From positions 1-34,735 of the IMG/VR virus record IMGVR_UViG_3300017605_000538: a stretch of 34,735 nt of DNA. One strand, given 5' to 3'. This document shows, piece by piece, positions 3,294-29,204 of this stretch; within the stretch, counting starts at the first letter, position 1; the number at the start of each line of letters is the position of its first letter. The notes beneath the pieces are model-generated. The model was given only the letters and a program-made list of their open reading frames with translations, was not told where the DNA came from and searched no databases. The position numbers were made by a program, and so were the translations under genes. This DNA is from a virus.

Positions 3294-3887
3294 ATGTGCT
3301 TGCCCGCCGCCGCGGCCGGTGCCGCCCTGCCCTACTTCGCCGGGGCCTCCACGGGCCTGTCTATCCTCGGGGCTTCCCAGGGGTACAAGCAGCAGCTGGA
3401 GATCGCCGCGGACGCGGCCGCGCAGGCGAACCGGTCGGCGGTCATCCAGTACACCCAACTCCAGACCCGCCAGATGCAGGAGGCCGCCCAAGCGGCCCAG
3501 GCGATCCGCACGAACGCCGTCAAGGCTCGCGCGGCCGGCGGGTCCCTGCGGGTCTCCTTGAGCGAGTCGGGCATCGGCGGTAACACAGCCTCCGAGCTCG
3601 CCGCCGGGTTCGAGCGGTCCGCGATGGAGTACGAGGGGGCCGTCATCCGGAACAAGGCCTTCCTCGACCAGAACTTCCAGGACCAGGCGAAGGCCATCCA
3701 GAACGGCGCCCGCGCCGAGGCCGCGAACGCCTACTCGCACGTCCAAGCCCCGAACTACCTCGGCATCCTGATGCAGGGCGTCGGGAACTACCTCCAGCTG
3801 TCGACGGGCGCGAAGGCCCTGAACCCCATCCAGATCGATGCCCCCGGGACGAACCCGGCCGTGGTCATCGGAAATGAGGACGCGTAG
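3294..3887 (+). CDS. Internal virion protein B, T7 gp14-like
   Basis: A 197-residue protein of the internal core that is ejected into the cell envelope at infection in T7. It starts with a short Met-Cys-Leu N-terminus followed by an Ala/Gly-rich hydrophobic stretch. A long alanine- and glutamine-rich helical region follows (QLQTRQMQEAAQAAQAIRTN). The segment AGGSLRVSLSESGIGGNTAS matches the T7 gp14 pattern ending in AVAESMLEGNS. A strong ribosome-binding site (AAGGAG at about 3279-3285) precedes the ATG. The stop overlaps the GTG start of the gp15-like gene by one base. Size and order match T7 gene 14. Confidence 0.87.
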   Translation: MCLPAAAAGAALPYFAGASTGLSILGASQGYKQQLEIAADAAAQANRSAVIQYTQLQTRQMQEAAQAAQAIRTNAVKARAAGGSLRVSLSESGIGGNTASELAAGFERSAMEYEGAVIRNKAFLDQNFQDQAKAIQNGARAEAANAYSHVQAPNYLGILMQGVGNYLQLSTGAKALNPIQIDAPGTNPAVVIGNEDA

Positions 3888-13469: not shown

Positions 13470-13488
13470 GTTCGTGCCATCCTGAATC
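13470..13488 (+). promoter_or_regulatory. Candidate phage RNA polymerase promoter, copy 1
   Basis: The 19-mer gttcgtgccatcctgaatc occurs here and again, identically and on the same strand, at 23147-23165. Both copies are in non-coding gaps upstream of rightward genes. Single-subunit phage polymerases use promoters of about 20 bp that recur exactly across the genome, so this is the best candidate in the window. This copy would drive the tail fibre and downstream accessory genes after the terminase. The exact start site is unknown. Shared binding sites for another protein are an alternative. Confidence 0.6.
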
Positions 13489-19967: not shown

Positions 19968-20210
19968 ATGCTCCCCGCGCTCATCTCCCTGCGCGAGCTC
20001 TGCGCCTCCCTAGACGTCTCCGGGCGCACTATCCGGCGCTGGGTATCCCTGGGCTCCTTCCCGCCTCCGATGCGCCTGGGCGGGGCCCTGCGCTGGCGGG
20101 AGGACGCAGTTTCCCGCTGGCTCGAGTCCCAAGCCCATCGGGCAGGCCCTCGGAGAATTCCCGGATCCGGGCTTGACGGGCTGGACCCGCCGAGGCAGAT
20201 TCGCGCCTGA
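19968..20210 (+). CDS. AlpA/Xis-like helix-turn-helix protein (putative excisionase)
   Basis: An 80-residue protein. Residues about 6-52 form a MerR/AlpA-type winged helix: SLRELCASLDVSGRTIRRWV, then SFPPPMRLGGALRWREDAVS. Proteins of this type act as excisionases or regulators of integrase genes. The stop overlaps the integrase ATG by one base, the usual xis-int layout. GGAGGG sits only two bases from the ATG, so the exact start is not certain. It probably binds near the candidate attP downstream of int and sets the direction of recombination. Confidence 0.8.
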   Translation: MLPALISLRELCASLDVSGRTIRRWVSLGSFPPPMRLGGALRWREDAVSRWLESQAHRAGPRRIPGSGLDGLDPPRQIRA

Positions 20211-21361
20211 TGCGCGGGCGCGCTCTCGGCCGTGGATCGCTGAAGGCCTCGCCGGCTGGGTACGTGGCCGACTGGCGCGACGCCGACGGGAACCGGCACC
20301 GGCGCCTACTGTCCTCCGACCGCCGAGTGGCCGAGCGGGCCCTCGCGGCTATCATCCGGGAGCGCGACCTGCGCATCGCCGGCCTGCACCAGGAGGACGC
20401 TGACGCCCCGATGGGCCCGCTGGTCGCCGAGTACCTGGCCGACCTCCGGGACCGAGCGCGCCCCGCGTATCAGGCTGGAGTCCGCCAGCGTCTCCGGGAC
20501 GTCGTCGCCGCGCTTGGGCTAGAGCGGTCGGGCGATGTAAGTCCCGATGCCTGCCGGGCTTACCTCCATCGACGGGTGCAGAACGGGGCCTCCCACAGGA
20601 CCGCCAACCACGACCTGCTGGCCCTCCGCGCGCTCCTCCGTTGGGCCGTCCGGGCTGGGCGCCTCCCGCGGGACCCGCTCGCTGGCTTCCAGGCCCTCCC
20701 ACTGACCGCCAGGACGCGCCGCCGCCGTCGCCGCCCGCTGGCCGAGGCTGAGTGTGCGGCCCTCCTCGACGCCGCCCACAGGCTCGACAAGGCCCGCAAG
20801 GGCGTCCCACAGGCGCCCCTGTGGCTCGCTCTCCTCGAGACGGGCGCCCGCCGGGGGGAGCTCGCCCGCCTGACCTGGGCTGACGTCGACCTCGAGCGGG
20901 GCTATCTGCGCCTCCCCGACACGGCCACGAAGACCGGCCGGTCCAGGTCGGTGCCTCTAACATCCGCCTTACACCGGGCCCTGTTCGGCCTCCACGGGCT
21001 GCGCCCCGACGACGGGGCCGTATTCCGCGCCAACCGGGGCGGCCTCCTGACGGCCCGCCGCGTCAACCGGGAGCTCCACCGCCTCCTGAAGGACGCCGGC
21101 ATCCCCTGGAAGGACCCGGCAGGCCGGACGGTGGACGTGCATGCCCTCCGGCACACGGCCGCTACCCGGATGGCCCGGGCGGGGGTGCCCCTGGACCACG
21201 CCCGGCGCATCCTGGGGCACGCCACGGTCGCCATGACCGCCCAGGTTTACACCCACGCTACAGAGGGCGACCTCGAGGCTTCCATGGCCCGCCTGCCCCA
21301 TATACCGGCCGGATCAACGGCTCAACGGGTGGCCCAGACGGCTGCCAAGATAGCGCCCTGA
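20210..21361 (+). CDS. int: Tyrosine recombinase (phage integrase), int1
   Basis: A 383-residue integrase with N-terminal arm-binding and core-binding parts and a C-terminal catalytic domain. Catalytic residues visible: Arg about 214 in TGARRGELARLTW, HxxR in HALRHTAATRM (His311, Arg314), LGHATVAMT (His337) and the nucleophile Tyr347 in QVYTHAT. The arm-binding part begins with a short strand-rich segment (GYVADWRDADGNRHRR). It catalyses site-specific integration into the host chromosome. It is translated with the Xis-like gene upstream. The last codons (TAAKIAP) are imperfectly repeated about 200 bases downstream, marking a possible earlier gene end or attP core. Confidence 0.95.
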   Translation: MRGRALGRGSLKASPAGYVADWRDADGNRHRRLLSSDRRVAERALAAIIRERDLRIAGLHQEDADAPMGPLVAEYLADLRDRARPAYQAGVRQRLRDVVAALGLERSGDVSPDACRAYLHRRVQNGASHRTANHDLLALRALLRWAVRAGRLPRDPLAGFQALPLTARTRRRRRRPLAEAECAALLDAAHRLDKARKGVPQAPLWLALLETGARRGELARLTWADVDLERGYLRLPDTATKTGRSRSVPLTSALHRALFGLHGLRPDDGAVFRANRGGLLTARRVNRELHRLLKDAGIPWKDPAGRTVDVHALRHTAATRMARAGVPLDHARRILGHATVAMTAQVYTHATEGDLEASMARLPHIPAGSTAQRVAQTAAKIAP

Positions 21362-22122: not shown

Positions 22123-22207
22123 CCTGAACCGCGCCGCCCGCCGCCGGCTCAAGGCCAAGTCCCGCGGGCCGTCGATGAGGGCCGCCTGATGCCCGAGAAG
22201 TTCATCC
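22123..22207 (+). repeat. 85 bp perfect direct repeat, copy A
   Basis: Identical over 85 bases to 26374-26458; the flanks diverge immediately on both sides. Copy B spans the end of the 108-residue gene and the first codons of the 86-residue gene. Here the same bases read only as a gene remnant (a C-terminal tail ending [12 protein letters not shown], then MPEKFIR and a stop). The repeat also supplies the last 19 residues of the leftward 252-residue gene. The two copies bracket 4.17 kb containing the second tyrosine recombinase. Confidence 0.97.
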
Positions 22208-22907
22208 GCTGAGCCCGGTCCAGGAGATCTTTGACCCGATGCCAACACCCCGGGTCCGGCGAGCACGACGCGCACACGGGCAACCCCAGGATCCGGTGGC
22301 TGGCGTATGGGCGCAGGCACAGTACGCAGGCCTCGGTGGCCGTCGACGGGCCCATCGACCCCCGCGGGTCCAACGGGCTCGACAGGTCCAACGGGCTCGA
22401 CGGGTCCAGCGGGCTCGACGGGTCCAGCGGGTCCTTCAGGTCCCACGGCGCCCGCGGGCCCTGCTGGTCCAACAGGGGATAGCCGGTCCCCTTGGCCTTC
22501 AGGTCGCCCTCGGCCGCCTTCTCGGCCCGCCGCGCCTTCACCTTGTCCCCCAGGAACCCCTTCAGGGCCTCCTCGGTCTCCCTCCGCACCCGTCGACCCT
22601 CCTCGACCGCCCGGGCCTCTTCAGCAGCCCCGTCTTGGTCGACGCCGATCGACCCACTGACCCGCTCAAGGTCACCAGGCTCGACAGAGGCCATCGCCCC
22701 ACCGACCCTCACTCGGTACCACTGGCCCTTACAGGCACTCGTGGTACTAACGGGTCCCGGCAGACCCACAGGTCCCTGTAGGGCCTTCGCGACACCCTGG
22801 TCCCTCAGGGCCATCTTGAGACCCTCCTGGTCAGAGCCGGCCACGACGGACCCTACGTGGACACAGTTCCCTCGGGCGTCGTGAACGGAGACCTGGCGGC
22901 GGATCAT
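22149..22907 (-). CDS. Hypothetical protein with C-terminal zinc-ribbon-like motif (252 aa)
   Basis: A leftward gene. The N-terminal third is mixed ([18 protein letters not shown]); the middle is a charged helix ([20 protein letters not shown]); then comes a repeat-encoded Ser/Pro/Asp stretch ([13 protein letters not shown]). Near the C-terminus is [22 protein letters not shown], a CxxC...CxxC arrangement typical of small zinc ribbons. GAGGAGGGG stands a few bases before the ATG, and the start overlaps the upstream membrane-protein stop (ATGA). The last 19 residues come from repeat copy A, so the protein end may have changed when the repeat arose. Function unknown. Confidence 0.65.
22366..22437. 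repeat. Tandem 18 bp repeat, about four units
   Basis: Alternating 9-base units gggtccarc and gggctcgac, with small variations in the end units. On the minus strand the repeat encodes the Leu-Asp-Pro-Ser-Ser-Pro stretch of the 252-residue protein. Other frames also stay open, including a collagen-like Gly-X-Y frame on the plus strand, but only the minus-strand gene has a strong ribosome site. Copy number may vary by slippage. Confidence 0.85.
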
Positions 22908-23044
22908 CGGCCCCTCCTCGTCGGCCTTACTGGGCCCTTACCTGTAGACAACAGGACCGACAGGCCCAGGACGACCAGGAAGAAGAGCGCCCCCAGGGAG
23001 ACGACGACGACAACGGCCACACCCAGTAGATCGGCTACGGTCAT
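22904..23044 (-). CDS. Small single-pass membrane protein (46 aa)
   Basis: A leftward frame giving a 46-residue product: a short N-terminus, a strongly hydrophobic helix (GVAVVVVVSLGALFFLVVLG) and a basic tail (VRPTRRGR). Its TGA overlaps the ATG of the 252-residue gene by four bases, and that gene's ribosome site lies inside this frame, which supports both. The ribosome site of this gene itself is weak. Position at the left edge of the control region makes it the first gene of the leftward group. Function unknown. Confidence 0.6.
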   Translation of the reverse strand: MTVADLLGVAVVVVVSLGALFFLVVLGLSVLLSTGKGPVRPTRRGR

Positions 23045-23146
23045 GCCCGAAGTGTACTCGAGAACTAGGGGAAAGGCCGAGGAAGAGGACCGCGGAGACG
23101 TCGATCCCTGCCCTAGAAGGACCCTAACGGAACCCTACCAGACTAG

Positions 23147-23165
23147 GTTCGTGCCATCCTGAATC
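23147..23165 (+). promoter_or_regulatory. Candidate phage RNA polymerase promoter, copy 2
   Basis: Exact second copy of gttcgtgccatcctgaatc (see 13470-13488), on the plus strand in the gap between leftward and rightward genes. It points toward the alanine-repeat and recombinase genes and sits at the left edge of an A/T-richer, palindrome-dense stretch. Phage-polymerase promoters next to A/T-rich DNA serve as replication origins in T7, so this copy may have a dual role; that is inference. Confidence 0.6.
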
Positions 23166-23439
23166 TACTAGGGGGGTGTATACCCCCTTCCCCCCACACC
23201 CCCTATCCCCCTAGTACTAGAAGTACTAGTAGTACTAGTAGTACTTCTAGACTTATTCATTACAAGTCTATAGGACTGGGAGGATAGTACTATCCCTCCA
23301 GTCCTACCTGTACAGTAACCTCAGGATCCTTAGGTACCACTGGACCCACAGGTACCACAGGGGTATGATGGTCCTGTAGTGTCGACGCCGACGGCGGGCC
23401 CAGCAGGACCGCCGGGCCCGACCGAGCCCAGGGGGGACC
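23166..23439. promoter_or_regulatory. Palindrome-rich control region, candidate operator or origin
   Basis: Non-coding and much richer in A/T than the rest. From left to right: gggggt-gtat-accccc (23172-23187); an inverted repeat with perfect 11-base arms ctagaagtact and agtacttctag (23217-23250) around tandem agtactagt units; a 34-base near-perfect palindrome (23272-23305, two mismatched pairs) centred on gatagtactatc; ctgtacag (23308-23315); an imperfect 16-base palindrome (23319-23334); two direct copies of aggtaccac (23332-23340, 23350-23358) 18 bases apart; and a 7 bp hairpin just before the next gene. Such density between divergent genes suggests operators, an origin or recombination sites. 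Which one is not decided by sequence. Confidence 0.65.
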
Positions 23440-24258
23440 ATGAAGCACATCCACGACCTGACCATCTTGAAACGGATCCTCGAGCGCGGCCTCTGCCACG
23501 GAGTGGGGAACGGAACTGACACCTTCTGCGCAGAACAGGCGGTCGCCGCCGTCTGCGGAATCCCCATCACCGACAGACCCGACGAGTGCGTCACGCCGGC
23601 GGTGTCCTCGTTCGGTCGAACGCTGAACGACTCCTCGTGGTCGTCGGACTCCACGCGGGCAAGCGGGATGCGGGACTTCCTCATCGCGCAGATCGGCTCG
23701 AAGGACGTCGTCGACGGCGGTGAATTCTCCCGCCGATTGGCGCTTCGGACGATCCAGGAGGTGCTCCCGGTCGCGCTGAGAGCGGCGAAGCTGGATGCGA
23801 AGATCGTGGACGCGTGTGTTGGAGCGAAGACGCTCGAGGAGGGCAAGGACGCCGCCGCCGACGCCGCCTACGCCGCCTACGTCGCCCGCGCCGCCGACGC
23901 CGTCGACGCCGCCTACGCCGCCTACCCCGCCTACACCACCTACGCCGCCGACGCCGCCCGCGCCGCCCGCGCCGCCGACGCCGCCGCCCGCGCCGCCTAC
24001 GCCGCCCGCGGCGCCCGCGCCGCCGACGCCGCCGCCCGCGCCGCCTACGCCGCCCGCGCCGCCCGCGCCGCCGACGCCGCCGCCCGCGCCGCCTACGCCG
24101 CCGCCGGCGCCCGCGCCGCCGACGTCGCCGACGCCGCCGCCTACGCCGCCGACGCCGCCTACGCCGCCAAGCGCGACGAGGTGCTGGCGCTCTCCGCGCG
24201 GATCGCCACGGAGATCCTGAAGGACCTCAAGTCGCCGGGCGCGGAGTTGCTTCAGTGA
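23440..24258 (+). CDS. Conserved phage protein with alanine-rich repeat domain (272 aa)
   Basis: Residues 1-130 form a globular domain with conserved-looking motifs (ILERGLCHGVG, AAVCGIPITDRPDECVTPAV, LNDSSWSSDSTRASGMRDFL, RRLALRTIQEVLPVALRAA). I recall similar proteins in other phages, of unknown function. Residues about 138-243 are almost pure Ala with Tyr, Arg and Asp in a regular pattern (AARAAYAARAARAADAA), most likely a long helix or helical solenoid. A charged helix ends the protein (LSARIATEILKDLKSPG). GGGGGGA precedes the ATG. The stop overlaps the GTG of the recombinase gene by four bases (GTGA), which ties the two together. Confidence 0.8.
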   Translation: MKHIHDLTILKRILERGLCHGVGNGTDTFCAEQAVAAVCGIPITDRPDECVTPAVSSFGRTLNDSSWSSDSTRASGMRDFLIAQIGSKDVVDGGEFSRRLALRTIQEVLPVALRAAKLDAKIVDACVGAKTLEEGKDAAADAAYAAYVARAADAVDAAYAAYPAYTTYAADAARAARAADAAARAAYAARGARAADAAARAAYAARAARAADAAARAAYAAAGARAADVADAAAYAADAAYAAKRDEVLALSARIATEILKDLKSPGAELLQ

Positions 24259-25097
24259 AGTCCTCCGCGACCATCGAGGCCGTACTGGCCGTCGCGCCGC
24301 CCGAGTGGAAGGGGACCAAGCACGGACGGAGGTCCACTGAGGCCGTGAAGCAGTTCGCCTTGTGGACCGAGTACCGGGCGCTCCGAGAAGGGGCCCGAAT
24401 TGGACTAACGTTCAGCGAGCCCAACCTCGCCGTCTACCTGGACTCGATGGAAGTCGCTGGCAGTACCCGCAATAGAGCCCTCTCGGCCATCCTGACCATC
24501 TGGCGCCGCGCCCACCGCCGGGGCCTGCTGGACTGCCCGCCCCCGTCGGGCCTGTACGCCCGCGAGCCCAAGGGGCGCCGGCGGGTCCTGTCGCCCCAAG
24601 AGGAACCGCGGCTCCTCGCGGCCCTTGCGGAGCCCTACAGGTCCCTGGCGACGTTCCTGCTGGCGAGTGGGCTCCGGGTCGGGGAGGCGCTGGCCCTGAC
24701 CTGGGCCGACGTCTACGTCATCCCGGACGGCGTGTCGGTCGCCGTCAGGGACTCGAAGAACGGGGACGCGCGGGTCGTGCCGGTCCATTGGGTAGGCGAC
24801 CGCCGATTCTGGCCCGACATTGCAACGCGACTCCCCGTCGGGCCGTTCAAGAAGGTCTCCCACTCCGCCTTCGACCACGCCTTCCGGGCCGCGAAGGCGA
24901 CCCTGGGCCTCGCGGGCGACCGAGAGCTCGTCCCGCACTCCCTGCGGCACACCTACGCCACCCGCCTCGTCGTCGCCGGCGTCCCGCTCTCCGTCGTCGC
25001 CCGCCTCCTGGGCCACCGGACCGTGCGGACGACCATGCGGTACTCGCACGTCAGCGACCAGGACGCGGCCGAGTGGATCCGGAGGGTCTCCAAGTGA
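24255..25097 (+). CDS. Second tyrosine recombinase (XerC/D-like size), int2
   Basis: A 280-residue protein with a SAM-like core-binding N-terminus and a full catalytic domain: Arg141 in ASGLRVGEALALTW, Lys168 in DSKNGDARVVPV, HSLRH (His228, Arg231), LGHRTVRTTM (His254) and nucleophile Tyr263 in RYSHVSDQD. All catalytic residues are present, so it is likely active. It lacks the longer arm-binding N-terminus of int1, resembling Xer or transposon-type recombinases. It is translated through a GTGA overlap from the alanine-repeat gene and lies within the 85 bp direct repeats, which may be its product or its targets. A phage dimer resolvase is an alternative role. Confidence 0.93.
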   Translation: MKSSATIEAVLAVAPPEWKGTKHGRRSTEAVKQFALWTEYRALREGARIGLTFSEPNLAVYLDSMEVAGSTRNRALSAILTIWRRAHRRGLLDCPPPSGLYAREPKGRRRVLSPQEEPRLLAALAEPYRSLATFLLASGLRVGEALALTWADVYVIPDGVSVAVRDSKNGDARVVPVHWVGDRRFWPDIATRLPVGPFKKVSHSAFDHAFRAAKATLGLAGDRELVPHSLRHTYATRLVVAGVPLSVVARLLGHRTVRTTMRYSHVSDQDAAEWIRRVSK

Positions 25098-25247: not shown

Positions 25248-25431
25248 TTGCGTTTCTGCGGTACCAGCGGCGGTCCCTGGGACGGTAAGTTCTTCTGGGG
25301 CGAAATAGTCCTTTGCAGTTTCCACATTCGGTATAGAAACTTGTCTCAGTAGTTTCCCTTAGGCGGCTCTAGGTAGTACTCTTCGTGGTCACGGTCGTGC
25401 CACTCACCGACCACCACCCGAAAGGACTGTC
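25248..25431 (+). promoter_or_regulatory. A/T-richer leader before early gene block, possible host-type promoter
   Basis: About 180 bases without a gene between a terminator and the rightward block that leads to RNA polymerase. TATAGA at 25332-25337 could be a -10 element, though no good -35 lies 17 bases upstream. Early genes, including the polymerase, need host transcription, so a host promoter is expected about here. A partial resemblance to the phage motif (tcgtgcca near 25395) is too short to count. Confidence 0.4.
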
Positions 25432-25665: not shown

Positions 25666-26114
25666 TCCTAGCCGCCGACACCGTTCGGGTCCCCAGGCCC
25701 CTCATGCCCGGCCGGCGGGTCTACGTCGCCGGCCCCATGCGGGGCTACCGGGACCACAACTTCCCGGCCTTCGACCGGGCCGAGCAGATCCTCCGGCGGG
25801 CCCTCGGGGTCGTTCCGATCAACCCGGCCGATATCGACCGGCGCGAGTTCGGGTACGACGGCTCCTACGCCCTCGACACGCGCACGGTCAACCAGCTGCT
25901 CCAGCGGGACCTGAAGGCCCTGCGGACCTGCGACGCGGTCGTCTTCCTGCCCGGCTGGCGTCGCTCGACCGGGGCGAACCTCGAGCGCGACATGGCCCGC
26001 CTGTGCGGGATCCCCTGCTGGGAGCTCGTCGGTGACCGCTATCTCGTCCCGGATCGCGGCTACTTCGCTCTGCCGCGGCTCGACATGCCGGTCCACCCGG
26101 AAGAGGGAATCTGA
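25662..26114 (+). CDS. DUF4406 / nucleoside 2-deoxyribosyltransferase-like protein
   Basis: A 150-residue protein. It begins with VYVAGPMRGYRDHNFPAFDR and continues INPADIDR, then DLKALRTCDAVVFLPGWRRS and STGANLERDMARLCGIP. These are the hallmarks of the DUF4406 branch of the nucleoside deoxyribosyltransferase-like fold, with a candidate catalytic Glu in ANLERDMA. Such enzymes cleave or exchange N-glycosidic bonds of nucleotides or related compounds; in phages a role in nucleotide metabolism or counter-defence is possible. The start GTG overlaps the preceding stop, and the stop overlaps the next ATG. Substrate unknown. Confidence 0.83.
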   Translation: MILAADTVRVPRPLMPGRRVYVAGPMRGYRDHNFPAFDRAEQILRRALGVVPINPADIDRREFGYDGSYALDTRTVNQLLQRDLKALRTCDAVVFLPGWRRSTGANLERDMARLCGIPCWELVGDRYLVPDRGYFALPRLDMPVHPEEGI

Positions 26115-26440
26115 TGGCCCACCTGCACTTGCCCGACACCGTCGACCCGACCACCCGGGCGTGGCTCAAGCTGGACCGCCGGGAACGCCGGGCGGCCATG
26201 CACGACGCCCGCGCGCACATGAAGTCCCGGGCCTTCATCGAGGAGTACGGCCAGCTGACGAAGGCCCAGCGCCGCGCCGCGACCCCCTGGCAGCCGATCC
26301 TGCTCAACCCTGCGGACGCACACGTCCTCTCCGGTCGTGGCCGCGCCGACCAGTCGGCCATGTGCAAGTCCGGCCTGAACCGCGCCGCCCGCCGCCGGCT
26401 CAAGGCCAAGTCCCGCGGGCCGTCGATGAGGGCCGCCTGA
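26114..26440 (+). CDS. Hypothetical basic protein (108 aa)
   Basis: A charged, mostly helical protein rich in Arg and Ala (RRERRAAMHDARAHMKSRAF). Its last 22 residues (ending [16 protein letters not shown]) are encoded inside the 85 bp repeat copy B. GGAAGAGGG precedes the ATG. It overlaps genes on both sides by one base. The basic tail might bind nucleic acid, but no family is recognised. Confidence 0.65.
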   Translation: MAHLHLPDTVDPTTRAWLKLDRRERRAAMHDARAHMKSRAFIEEYGQLTKAQRRAATPWQPILLNPADAHVLSGRGRADQSAMCKSGLNRAARRRLKAKSRGPSMRAA

Positions 26441-26458
26441 TGCCCGAGAAGTTCATCC
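26374..26458 (+). repeat. 85 bp perfect direct repeat, copy B
   Basis: Identical to 22123-22207. It covers the 3' end of the 108-residue gene and the first six codons of the 86-residue gene, both intact here, so this copy looks like the functional context. Sites at gene ends are favoured by tyrosine recombinases, which fits an attachment-site role for one of the two recombinases. Confidence 0.97.
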
Positions 26459-26700
26459 CTGGTATCCCCCTGGACGGCAAGGAGGACATGACCGCCCCGC
26501 CGATCCACTACAGCCTCGTCATCGGCCGGCAGGGTCGTAAGGGCGGGGTGGACATCCACCAGATCCGTGGCATTTCCGAGCTCGGCGGCGGCTTCGACTG
26601 TGAGGTCGAGCGCCTTGGCCGGAACCTACACGCGGCCGTCGACGACATCCTGGAAGGCCTCCGCGCGAACGGCTGGACCCCGCGGGATGCGGTCCGCTGA
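26440..26700 (+). CDS. Hypothetical protein upstream of RNA polymerase (86 aa)
   Basis: Starts MPEKFIPGIPLDGKEDMTAP; the first six codons lie in repeat copy B. The remainder has alternating strands and a helix (RNLHAAVDDILEGLRANGW). It overlaps the preceding stop and the RNA polymerase ATG by one base each, placing it in the early transcript. No family recognised. It could be an early regulator, but there is no direct evidence. Confidence 0.65.
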   Translation: MPEKFIPGIPLDGKEDMTAPPIHYSLVIGRQGRKGGVDIHQIRGISELGGGFDCEVERLGRNLHAAVDDILEGLRANGWTPRDAVR

Positions 26701-29204
26701 TGGCCCGACGGCTCGAGCGAGACCGGCAGGCCCCGACGGGCGTCGACGTGGCCCTGTCGGACCAGCTGGTCGAGGACCTGATCGTCGGGTCCACGGTCAC
26801 CCGGAACCGCGCGCGGGACGAGCGGGCCGCGAAGTTCGGCTACCGCCCCGAGGGCCCCGGCGGGCGCCGGCTGCTCGCGGAGGCCGTCAAGGCCCTCGAG
26901 CCGGCCGTCATCGAGTGGCTCGAGCGGGCCGCCCAGGGCCGCGCGCAGGGGGGCCGGAAGTCGGCGAACGCACACGAGCTCCTCGGGACGATCAAGCCGG
27001 CCGTGATCGCCACCGTGGCCTTCCGGACGTGCCTCGACTACCTGACCGGCCGGACGGGCATCCAGTCGATCGCGCACCGGATCGGGGTCGCCCTCGAGGA
27101 CGAGGCCCGGATGGTCCAGGTCCAGAAGATCAAGAAGAAGTCCCTCTGGCGGGACCTCTCGCGCCGCCTCCGGAAGACGCGCGCCCGATCGCACGCCCGC
27201 AAGATGGTCGAGTCCGCCCTGACGAACCTGGGCGGTTCCTTCTCGGGCTGGCCGGTCCCGGAACGCTTCCGGGTCGGCGTGGTCCTGCTCGAGCTCATCC
27301 GGATGCACACCGGGTTCATCGAGATCGCCAAGTTCGGCGACGCCCGCGGGCGCAAGCGGACCGTCGTCGCCCCGACCGCCAAGGCGATCGAGTGGCTCGA
27401 CAAGGCCGCGGCGGGGGACTCCCTCGCCCGCCCGCTATGGCTCCCGACCCGCTCGGCGCCCGCCGACTGGAAGGGCGCCTGGGGCGGCGGGTACCGTGTG
27501 ACTCGTCTCCGTGAACGGCCGTTGGTCAAGACGCACGACCGGGCTGTCCTCGAGTCCGTCGGCTCGGCCGACTGTGAGCTCCACCTGGGGGCCGCGAACG
27601 CCCTCCAGCGGGCCGCGTGGCGCGTCAACCGGCGCGTCCTCGAGGTCGCCCGGTGGGCCGCAGAACGCGGGGTGGACGTCGTCGGCTTCCGGCCGATCAC
27701 GGGCATCCCGGACAGCCTGCCCAAGGCCCAGCCCAGGAAGGACCAGCTGGCCGGCTGGACGGACGAGCAGAAGGCCGAGCGCGAGCGCGCCATCCGGGCC
27801 CGCTCGGACTACTTCACCGCCGACCGGGAGAACCGCGGGCGGGCCATGCTCAGGGCGCGGACCCTGTGGGTCGCCGGTGAGTACCTGGACGCCCCGGCGA
27901 TCCATTTCCCCGTCCAGGCGGACTTCCGGGGGCGCATCTACCCCCAGCCTCTGTTCCTCCAGCCGCAGGGGGACGACCTCTCGCGGGGCCTGCTCGAGTT
28001 CGCGGAGGGCCTCCCCGTCGCCGACCGCGAGGCCCAGGACGCCTACCTCTCGCGCGGGGCGAGCCTGTACGGGGCCGGTAAGGGCTCCGTCCGCTCGCGC
28101 ATCGAGACCGCCCGCTCCCGCCTGGCGCCCCTGTGGGTCGCGATCGGGAAGGACCCCCAGGGCCGACGGGAGTGGACGCAGCAGGAGGACCCCTGGCAGG
28201 CCCTCGCGTTCGCGATCGACTTCGCCGAGCACGCGGGCGCCCCGGGACACCACAAGTCCCACCTGCCGGTGACGGTCGACCACACCTCGAGCGGGCTCCA
28301 ACTCTACGCCCTCCTGACCCTCGACCGGCCGCTCGCGGAGGCGACCAACGTGGCCCCCTCGGAGGCACCGGTCGACCTGTACCAGATCATCGCGGACGAT
28401 CTGACCGCCCGCCTGGCCGCGGACGACCACCCGGACTCGGCTCGGTGGCTCGAGTTCCTGGATGGTCGGGTCCCCCGGGAGCTCACCAAGCGCCCGGTGA
28501 TGACGCAGGTCTACGGGGTCACGGTGCACTCGATGATCCACTACGTCCGAGAGGTCTATGAGGTCATCCGGGTGAAGCGGGGGTCGACGCCGTTCCCGAT
28601 CCTGGAGGGGGGCGGCTACCGGGCGTCGTCCTTCCTGGCGAAGCACCTGATCGCGACCATGAACGCTCGCATCGGCGCCTCCCGGGCGGCGATGGACTGG
28701 CTCACCTACTGCGCGGACACGATGACCGAGCATGGCCTGCCCCTGCGCTGGACGTCCCCGAGCGGGTGGCCCGTCATCCAGGACTACCGCCAGTTCGAGA
28801 GCCGCCGGATCCGCACGGCCGTCGGGAACGTCGTCCGGTTCGTCCGCTACCGGGAGGACAAGCCCGGGCTCTCGGCCGGCCGCCAGTCGAACGGGTTCCC
28901 GCCCAACTTCGTCCACTCGATCGACGCGGCCGTCATGGCCCGCGCGGTCTGCCGGATGCGCGAGCGGTCCGTGCGGTCCGTCGGGACCGTGCACGACAGC
29001 TACATGGCCCTCGCCGCCCAGGTGCCCGAGGTGGGCCGCGCGGTCCGTGGGGTCCTCGCGGAGGTCTTCCAGGACGACCTGCTCACCCGCTTGCGCGCGG
29101 AGCTCCAGCAGGACCTCGGGGACCTGTGCCTCCTGCCGGAGCCTCCGGATCGGGGGGACTTCGTGCCGAGCGAGGTCCTGAAGTCCCAACACCTTCTCTC
29201 GTGA
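26700..29204 (+). CDS. Single-subunit DNA-directed RNA polymerase (T7 gp1-like)
   Basis: An 834-residue protein (T7: 883). Landmarks align with T7: DFRGRIYPQPLF with Asp about 408; catalytic Asp about 527 in VTVDHTSSGLQLYALL (T7 Asp537); TKRPVMTQVYG with Lys597 and Tyr605 (T7 Lys631, Tyr639, same spacing); NFVHSIDAAVM; and GTVHDSYM with His765 and Asp766 (T7 His811, Asp812). All catalytic residues are present. It would transcribe middle and late genes from phage promoters such as those proposed at 13470 and 23147. Promoter-specificity residues cannot be judged by eye. The ATG overlaps the upstream stop by one base. Confidence 0.97.
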   Translation: MARRLERDRQAPTGVDVALSDQLVEDLIVGSTVTRNRARDERAAKFGYRPEGPGGRRLLAEAVKALEPAVIEWLERAAQGRAQGGRKSANAHELLGTIKPAVIATVAFRTCLDYLTGRTGIQSIAHRIGVALEDEARMVQVQKIKKKSLWRDLSRRLRKTRARSHARKMVESALTNLGGSFSGWPVPERFRVGVVLLELIRMHTGFIEIAKFGDARGRKRTVVAPTAKAIEWLDKAAAGDSLARPLWLPTRSAPADWKGAWGGGYRVTRLRERPLVKTHDRAVLESVGSADCELHLGAANALQRAAWRVNRRVLEVARWAAERGVDVVGFRPITGIPDSLPKAQPRKDQLAGWTDEQKAERERAIRARSDYFTADRENRGRAMLRARTLWVAGEYLDAPAIHFPVQADFRGRIYPQPLFLQPQGDDLSRGLLEFAEGLPVADREAQDAYLSRGASLYGAGKGSVRSRIETARSRLAPLWVAIGKDPQGRREWTQQEDPWQALAFAIDFAEHAGAPGHHKSHLPVTVDHTSSGLQLYALLTLDRPLAEATNVAPSEAPVDLYQIIADDLTARLAADDHPDSARWLEFLDGRVPRELTKRPVMTQVYGVTVHSMIHYVREVYEVIRVKRGSTPFPILEGGGYRASSFLAKHLIATMNARIGASRAAMDWLTYCADTMTEHGLPLRWTSPSGWPVIQDYRQFESRRIRTAVGNVVRFVRYREDKPGLSAGRQSNGFPPNFVHSIDAAVMARAVCRMRERSVRSVGTVHDSYMALAAQVPEVGRAVRGVLAEVFQDDLLTRLRAELQQDLGDLCLLPEPPDRGDFVPSEVLKSQHLLS

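Follow-up and report, generated by a model that had tools for sequence, protein, structure and literature searches.

Genes and relatives

The DNA considered here (the window) covers positions 1 to 34,735 of IMG/VR record IMGVR_UViG_3300017605_000538, a 34,735-nt contig from an uncultivated virus. It encodes a T7-like single-subunit RNA polymerase (26700–29204, plus strand), a Gp2.5-like protein, a T7-type primase-helicase and two tyrosine integrases, int1 (20210–21361) and int2 (24255–25097, plus strand). Only ∼30% identity links the polymerase to those of the best isolated phages, while four IMG/VR contigs encode polymerases 73–78% identical to it. The window is collinear with a complete 43-kb relative, G001 (IMGVR_UViG_3300007076_000003; 40-nt terminal repeat; coordinates are given on the reversed record), of which ∼9 kb is missing from the window. 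Two further relatives, L024 (IMGVR_UViG_3300046516_001400) and L028 (IMGVR_UViG_3300046780_001062), complete the set of four phages compared below. These are a new lineage of integrase-carrying T7-like phages with a real, well-delimited control region; from the integrase alone, the lineage is taken to be temperate. Across the control region and its surroundings there is no DNA similarity of substance to isolated phages. A search of bacterial genome contigs for prophages carrying a related polymerase found none, a search for a host through exact matches to the 3′ end of the G001 tRNA-Tyr gene likewise gave none, and an Rfam search returned no match.

The control region lies at 23147–23439. As the original prediction had it, the region separates leftward genes (22149–23044) from rightward genes, which begin at 23440; in all four phages it splits one or more leftward genes from int2, the RNA polymerase and the replication genes. 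The first leftward gene of the window (22904–23044, minus strand; read from the sequence) encodes a 46-aa predicted membrane peptide, and a membrane peptide of 38 aa occupies this position in L028. The first leftward gene of G001 and L024 (L005 4399–4863; L024 904–1365) specifies a uracil-DNA-glycosylase (UDG)-like protein. Next on the left is a protein with CxxC pairs (22149–22907, minus strand), homologous in G001 and L024, in whose low-confidence structure model a helix-turn-helix (HTH) was not recognised. The first rightward gene (23440–24258, plus strand) encodes an N-terminal domain followed by Ala-rich repeats; no family was found for this protein. Its C-terminal half consists of the repeats (ADAARAAYAA-type), which are encoded by a GC-rich 9-nt repeat. 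The gene after it is int2, which in L024 and L028 is the next gene after the control region.

Two other observations concern the neighborhood. The only detectable match to int1 in the compared regions of G001 and L024 is the int2-type integrase of G001, at 31%. An exact 85-nt direct repeat occupies 22123–22207 and 26374–26458; the leftward CxxC gene has its 3′ end within the first copy, and the second is the natural end of an ORF (26114–26440) and the start of the next gene. The repeat reflects either a genuine duplication or a chimeric join in the assembly.

A probable promoter for the phage polymerase

The region opens with the 19-mer GTTCGTGCCATCCTGAATC (23147–23165, plus strand), a predicted phage RNA polymerase promoter that recurs exactly at 13470–13488 (plus strand), with a rightward start codon ∼24 nt further on. 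The promoter core, GTGCCATCCT, is at 23151–23160, and transcription would start near G23161. The window has two copies of the core (13474, 23151) and reversed G001 three (6487, 27310, 35482); all point the same way as the rightward genes, and shared copies sit at matching gene positions, that at 13470 being collinear with the G001 copy at 27310. L024 carries the core at both positions, and L028 carries the control-region copy. Among G001 14-mers that occur at least three times, an unbiased search, the GTGCCATCCT motif was the only intergenic one, the gene placement of the others being judged by eye. When the four control regions were searched pairwise, the promoter core was common to them and other matches were near chance. 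An exact 19-mer in another contig (IMGVR_UViG_3300020044_006781, L026), which resembles neither the window nor G001 at the DNA level, was dismissed as a chance occurrence.

The original prediction had taken the repeated 19-mer for a phage promoter, and the co-oriented, same-position copies in three related phages (G001, L024 and L028) strongly support this. On this comparison, the T7-like RNA polymerase that the phage encodes very probably uses the 19-mer at 23147 as a promoter. It might be supposed instead that GTGCCATCCT is a stoperator-like binding site for a different phage regulator: the sites are asymmetric, co-oriented, intergenic and few per genome, as fits that idea. However, the polymerase that the phage encodes requires promoters, and GTGCCATCCT is the only such repeated motif; its location upstream of operons also counts against the regulator-site account, which we consider very unlikely.

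Predicted host-type promoters in both directions

A scan for sigma-70-type promoters, which yields predictions from sequence, gave one site per region in all four regions, versus ∼0.1 expected. The only match within 22900–23500 of the window (0.1 expected) is TGGACC-N17-TATGAT at 23341–23369 (plus strand), a predicted rightward host promoter that had escaped earlier notice. G001 has a predicted rightward promoter, TTGACT-N16-TACACT, in the equivalent place. The L024 and L028 matches belong to the leftward gene (TTGACA-N17-TAGACT and TTGACC-N17-TACACT, respectively); by eye, boxes can also be seen before int2 in these two phages, TTGACT-N17-TAAGCT-N6-ATG in L024 and TAGAGT-N6-ATG in L028.

In the leftward direction, a TAnACT box stands 6–8 nt ahead of the ATG in four of four cases, as TACACT in the window and L028 and as TAGACT in G001 and L024. 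The box of the window (23051–23056, minus strand; read from the sequence) is the −10 element of a predicted leaderless promoter; the ATG at 23044 follows 6 nt later, and the −35 is poor. In bacteria of high GC content, leaderless genes are recognisable by a TANNNT element ∼12 nt upstream of their start codon (PMC3160421); the spacing of TAnACT to ATG is this leaderless signature, and on that account the leftward promoters are predicted to be leaderless.

A stem at the predicted transcript start

Directly after the phage promoter, TACTAGGGGG (23166–23175) can pair with CCCCCTAGTA (23207–23216), giving a start-proximal stem at 23166–23216 (plus strand). All four control-region promoter copies are followed by a perfect stem whose 5′ arm begins at +1 to +7; the arms are TAGAACC/GGTTCTA in G001, GAACCC/GGGTTC in L024 (where the stem extends to 11 of 12 pairs) and TAGAAGC/GCTTCTA in L028. 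Stem lengths are 10, 7, 6 and 7 bp in the window, G001, L024 and L028, with P values against shuffles of 0.003, 0.065, 0.12 and 0.021, so that two of the four exceed 0.05. Five other promoter copies have no comparable start-proximal stem (3–4 bp, P 0.78–0.99). The test was framed after the sequences had been inspected; therefore, the conserved stem is best taken as a promising lead, short of proof. The leader RNA of the window folds with z = −4.4 relative to shuffles; the leaders of G001 and L024 overall fold no better than shuffles.

The stem could act as RNA or as DNA. The RNA model would be the 5′ hairpin of T7 gene 10 mRNA, which protects that mRNA (PMC2254391): both are stems at the start of a phage-polymerase transcript. 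Unlike the gene 10 case, the stem in this lineage is found only at the control-region promoter, not at the promoter copy before the late genes.

Palindromes and repeats

Tandem 9-bp AGTACTAGT units with TAGTACTA cores occupy 23212–23250 and form a 34-bp palindrome (23217–23250; 17-nt arms, 94% complementary, no spacer). A near-perfect 36-bp palindrome with TAGTACTA at its center lies at 23271–23306 (16 of 18 pairs matched). Units of the TAGTACTA type are at 23212, 23221, 23230, 23239 and 23285. Counting both strands, the window has nine TAGTACT heptamers, versus 0.17 expected, and eight of the nine are inside 23212–23292. The remaining one, at 25374, is within a second A/T-rich intergenic stretch (25250–25430) downstream of int2. 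Two copies of AGGTACCAC (23332–23358), with starts at 23332 and 23350, 18 bp apart, bracket the −35 element of the predicted rightward host promoter. In 300 dinucleotide shuffles of 23147–23439, the observed inverted-repeat score was never reached; in a scan of the whole window, the only higher-scoring 293-nt stretch was a simple-repeat coding region near 23.9 kb.

The 34-base palindrome, the tandem units and the paired AGGTACCAC described in the original prediction are all present, far above shuffled expectation. Its count of at least five inverted repeats was on the high side, with two very strong ones and, as a third, the 10-bp perfect stem at 23166–23175/23207–23216. The long palindromes and tandem units are the window's own, not conserved in sequence among the relatives. 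Dyad-rich repeats are significant in the window, weakly so in L028, where other repeated dyads led by CCCCTACC are found at 316, 360 and 412, and not significant in G001 or L024. The original prediction counted non-conservation of the dyads in close relatives against itself; their sequences are in fact not conserved, whereas the presence of a stem at the promoter start is.

A run of four G5–6 tracts, GGGGGATAGGGGGTGTGGGGGGAAGGGGG (23183–23211, minus strand, the template), had also been missed. It is a possible G-quadruplex motif; as a conserved feature it was rejected because G001 has none at the equivalent place, the check in L024 and L028 being by eye only.

Possible roles of the region

Several functions might be assigned to such a region, and the original prediction offered three. 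In one of these, operators lie between the divergent genes. Taken as an immunity operator region, the DNA would bind a phage repressor at its dyads, which in a lysogen would shut off the two host promoters together with the phage promoter. Predicted divergent host-type promoters are indeed present, the AGGTACCAC copies flank a −35 element, and the repeated dyads are phage-specific, being confined to the control region in the window and replaced by different ones in L028, as expected of heteroimmune phages. The missing part is the adjacent repressor gene that a lambda-like repressor/operator switch would have. None of the scanned neighboring genes, including those beside the integrase, was recognised as a MarR-like, HTH or repressor gene, and the genes adjoining on the left encode the membrane peptide or the UDG-like protein, plus the CxxC protein. 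This absence counts against an immunity operator, as do the lack of significant repeats in G001 and L024 and the fact that lysogeny is deduced only from the integrase; we regard the proposal as doubtful, although a real possibility. Far less can be said for the repeats as int2 arm sites in a region containing attP. The int2 gene is downstream of the region, immediately so in two of the relatives; but the repeats are not common to the relatives although int2 is 60–69% identical, and G001 has, downstream of int2, a tRNA-Tyr gene of the sort that usually serves as an attachment site. The option of int2 recombination sites is not supported, and we consider it highly improbable. The tRNA-Tyr gene of G001 is at L005 6680–6767, and a contig 99.98–100% identical to G001 (L006) begins inside the T arm of this tRNA; its start may possibly be attP, or else an arbitrary contig end.

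The other function to be weighed is that of a primary replication origin, in which RNA begun at 23147 by the phage polymerase would prime DNA synthesis in the neighboring A/T-rich stretch, as it does in T7. The primary origin of T7 consists of phi1.1A/B plus A/T-rich DNA. The A/T-rich cluster is at 3761–3821 in the numbering of PMC12839067. The window has T7-type replication genes, and nowhere in it or in G001 are 200 nt as rich in A/T as in the control region; in L024 and L028 the region is among the most A/T-rich parts of the pieces available. DNA after the control-region promoter has a GC content of 0.47 in the window and 0.54 in G001, as opposed to 0.72–0.74 after their other copies; thus in these two phages a phage promoter stands beside A/T-rich DNA, like the T7 origin. 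Unlike the T7 origin, there is a single promoter, and the A/T-rich follow-on is not conserved in the other two relatives, where the 120 nt after the promoter have GC contents of 0.69 (L024) and 0.67 (L028). No reversal of GC skew occurs at the control region, and the lack of conservation of the palindromes among relatives also counts against an origin. Skew as an origin signal was itself set aside as uninformative. An origin here is possible but, we think, unlikely; such a role could coexist with the control-region role.

A probable early control region

The account that we favor, on balance and from sequence comparison, is that early genes are controlled from this region in a temperate lineage of T7-like phages, with a structured leader and with dyads that are probably regulator sites. 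In this scenario, host RNA polymerase would start the leftward operon from the leaderless promoter at 23051–23056, and the rightward early operon, which runs through int2 to the phage RNA polymerase, from 23341–23369; the phage polymerase, once made, would start at 23147 and amplify the int2-polymerase operon via a strongly structured leader; the stem at the transcript start would probably protect or regulate the transcript, as the T7 gene 10 hairpin does; finally, the GTAC-centered dyads and the AGGTACCAC copies would probably be sites for a regulator that times the host and phage promoters. The repeated dyads are what suggests this putative regulator. Comparison of the phages speaks for the promoter and the divergent layout, both of which are well supported, and also for a start-proximal stem being present; we infer the functional steps and the switch mechanism.

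The features of T7-like early control are present: a phage single-subunit polymerase, co-oriented candidate promoters and predicted host-type promoters before the early genes. The left end of T7 has a leftward host promoter (A0), rightward host promoters (A1–A3) and a phage promoter (phi-OL). Like it, the region has host promoters, here predicted ones, in both directions and, ahead of the early genes and the RNA polymerase, a probable phage promoter; it differs in being internal and beside an integrase, in its large palindromes and in its promoter sequence. The second comparison is with Pseudomonas phage LUZ100 and Agrobacterium phage Pasto (PMC10134795), in which, as here, an integrase is beside a T7-like RNA polymerase, a phage promoter can feed its own polymerase and proposed binding sites flank that promoter. 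Such feeding has been reported for the temperate-like LUZ100, and the feedback proposed there has a MarR-like protein as its presumed blocker (PMC10134795). The integrase near the RNA polymerase with a phage promoter upstream, which typifies LUZ100 and Pasto, is thus found in the window. Unlike in those phages, a MarR-like gene was not found here, the promoter precedes int2 instead of standing immediately before the polymerase, and the position and organisation of the region differ.

The control region is therefore a variation on a known T7-like type, not categorically new. A bolder supposition is a lysogeny switch that dispenses with a MarR or lambda-type repressor, in which a hairpin or dyad at the start of the phage promoter, conserved in position but variable in sequence, would gate the positive feedback of the polymerase and perhaps make the transcript a replication primer; we judge this improbable. 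Switching between lysogeny and lytic growth in T7-like phages is poorly known, and the published models rest on a MarR regulator found in a few proteobacterial phages. The present lineage, in which no MarR gene is recognised, offers four comparable control regions together with a candidate polymerase-promoter pair.
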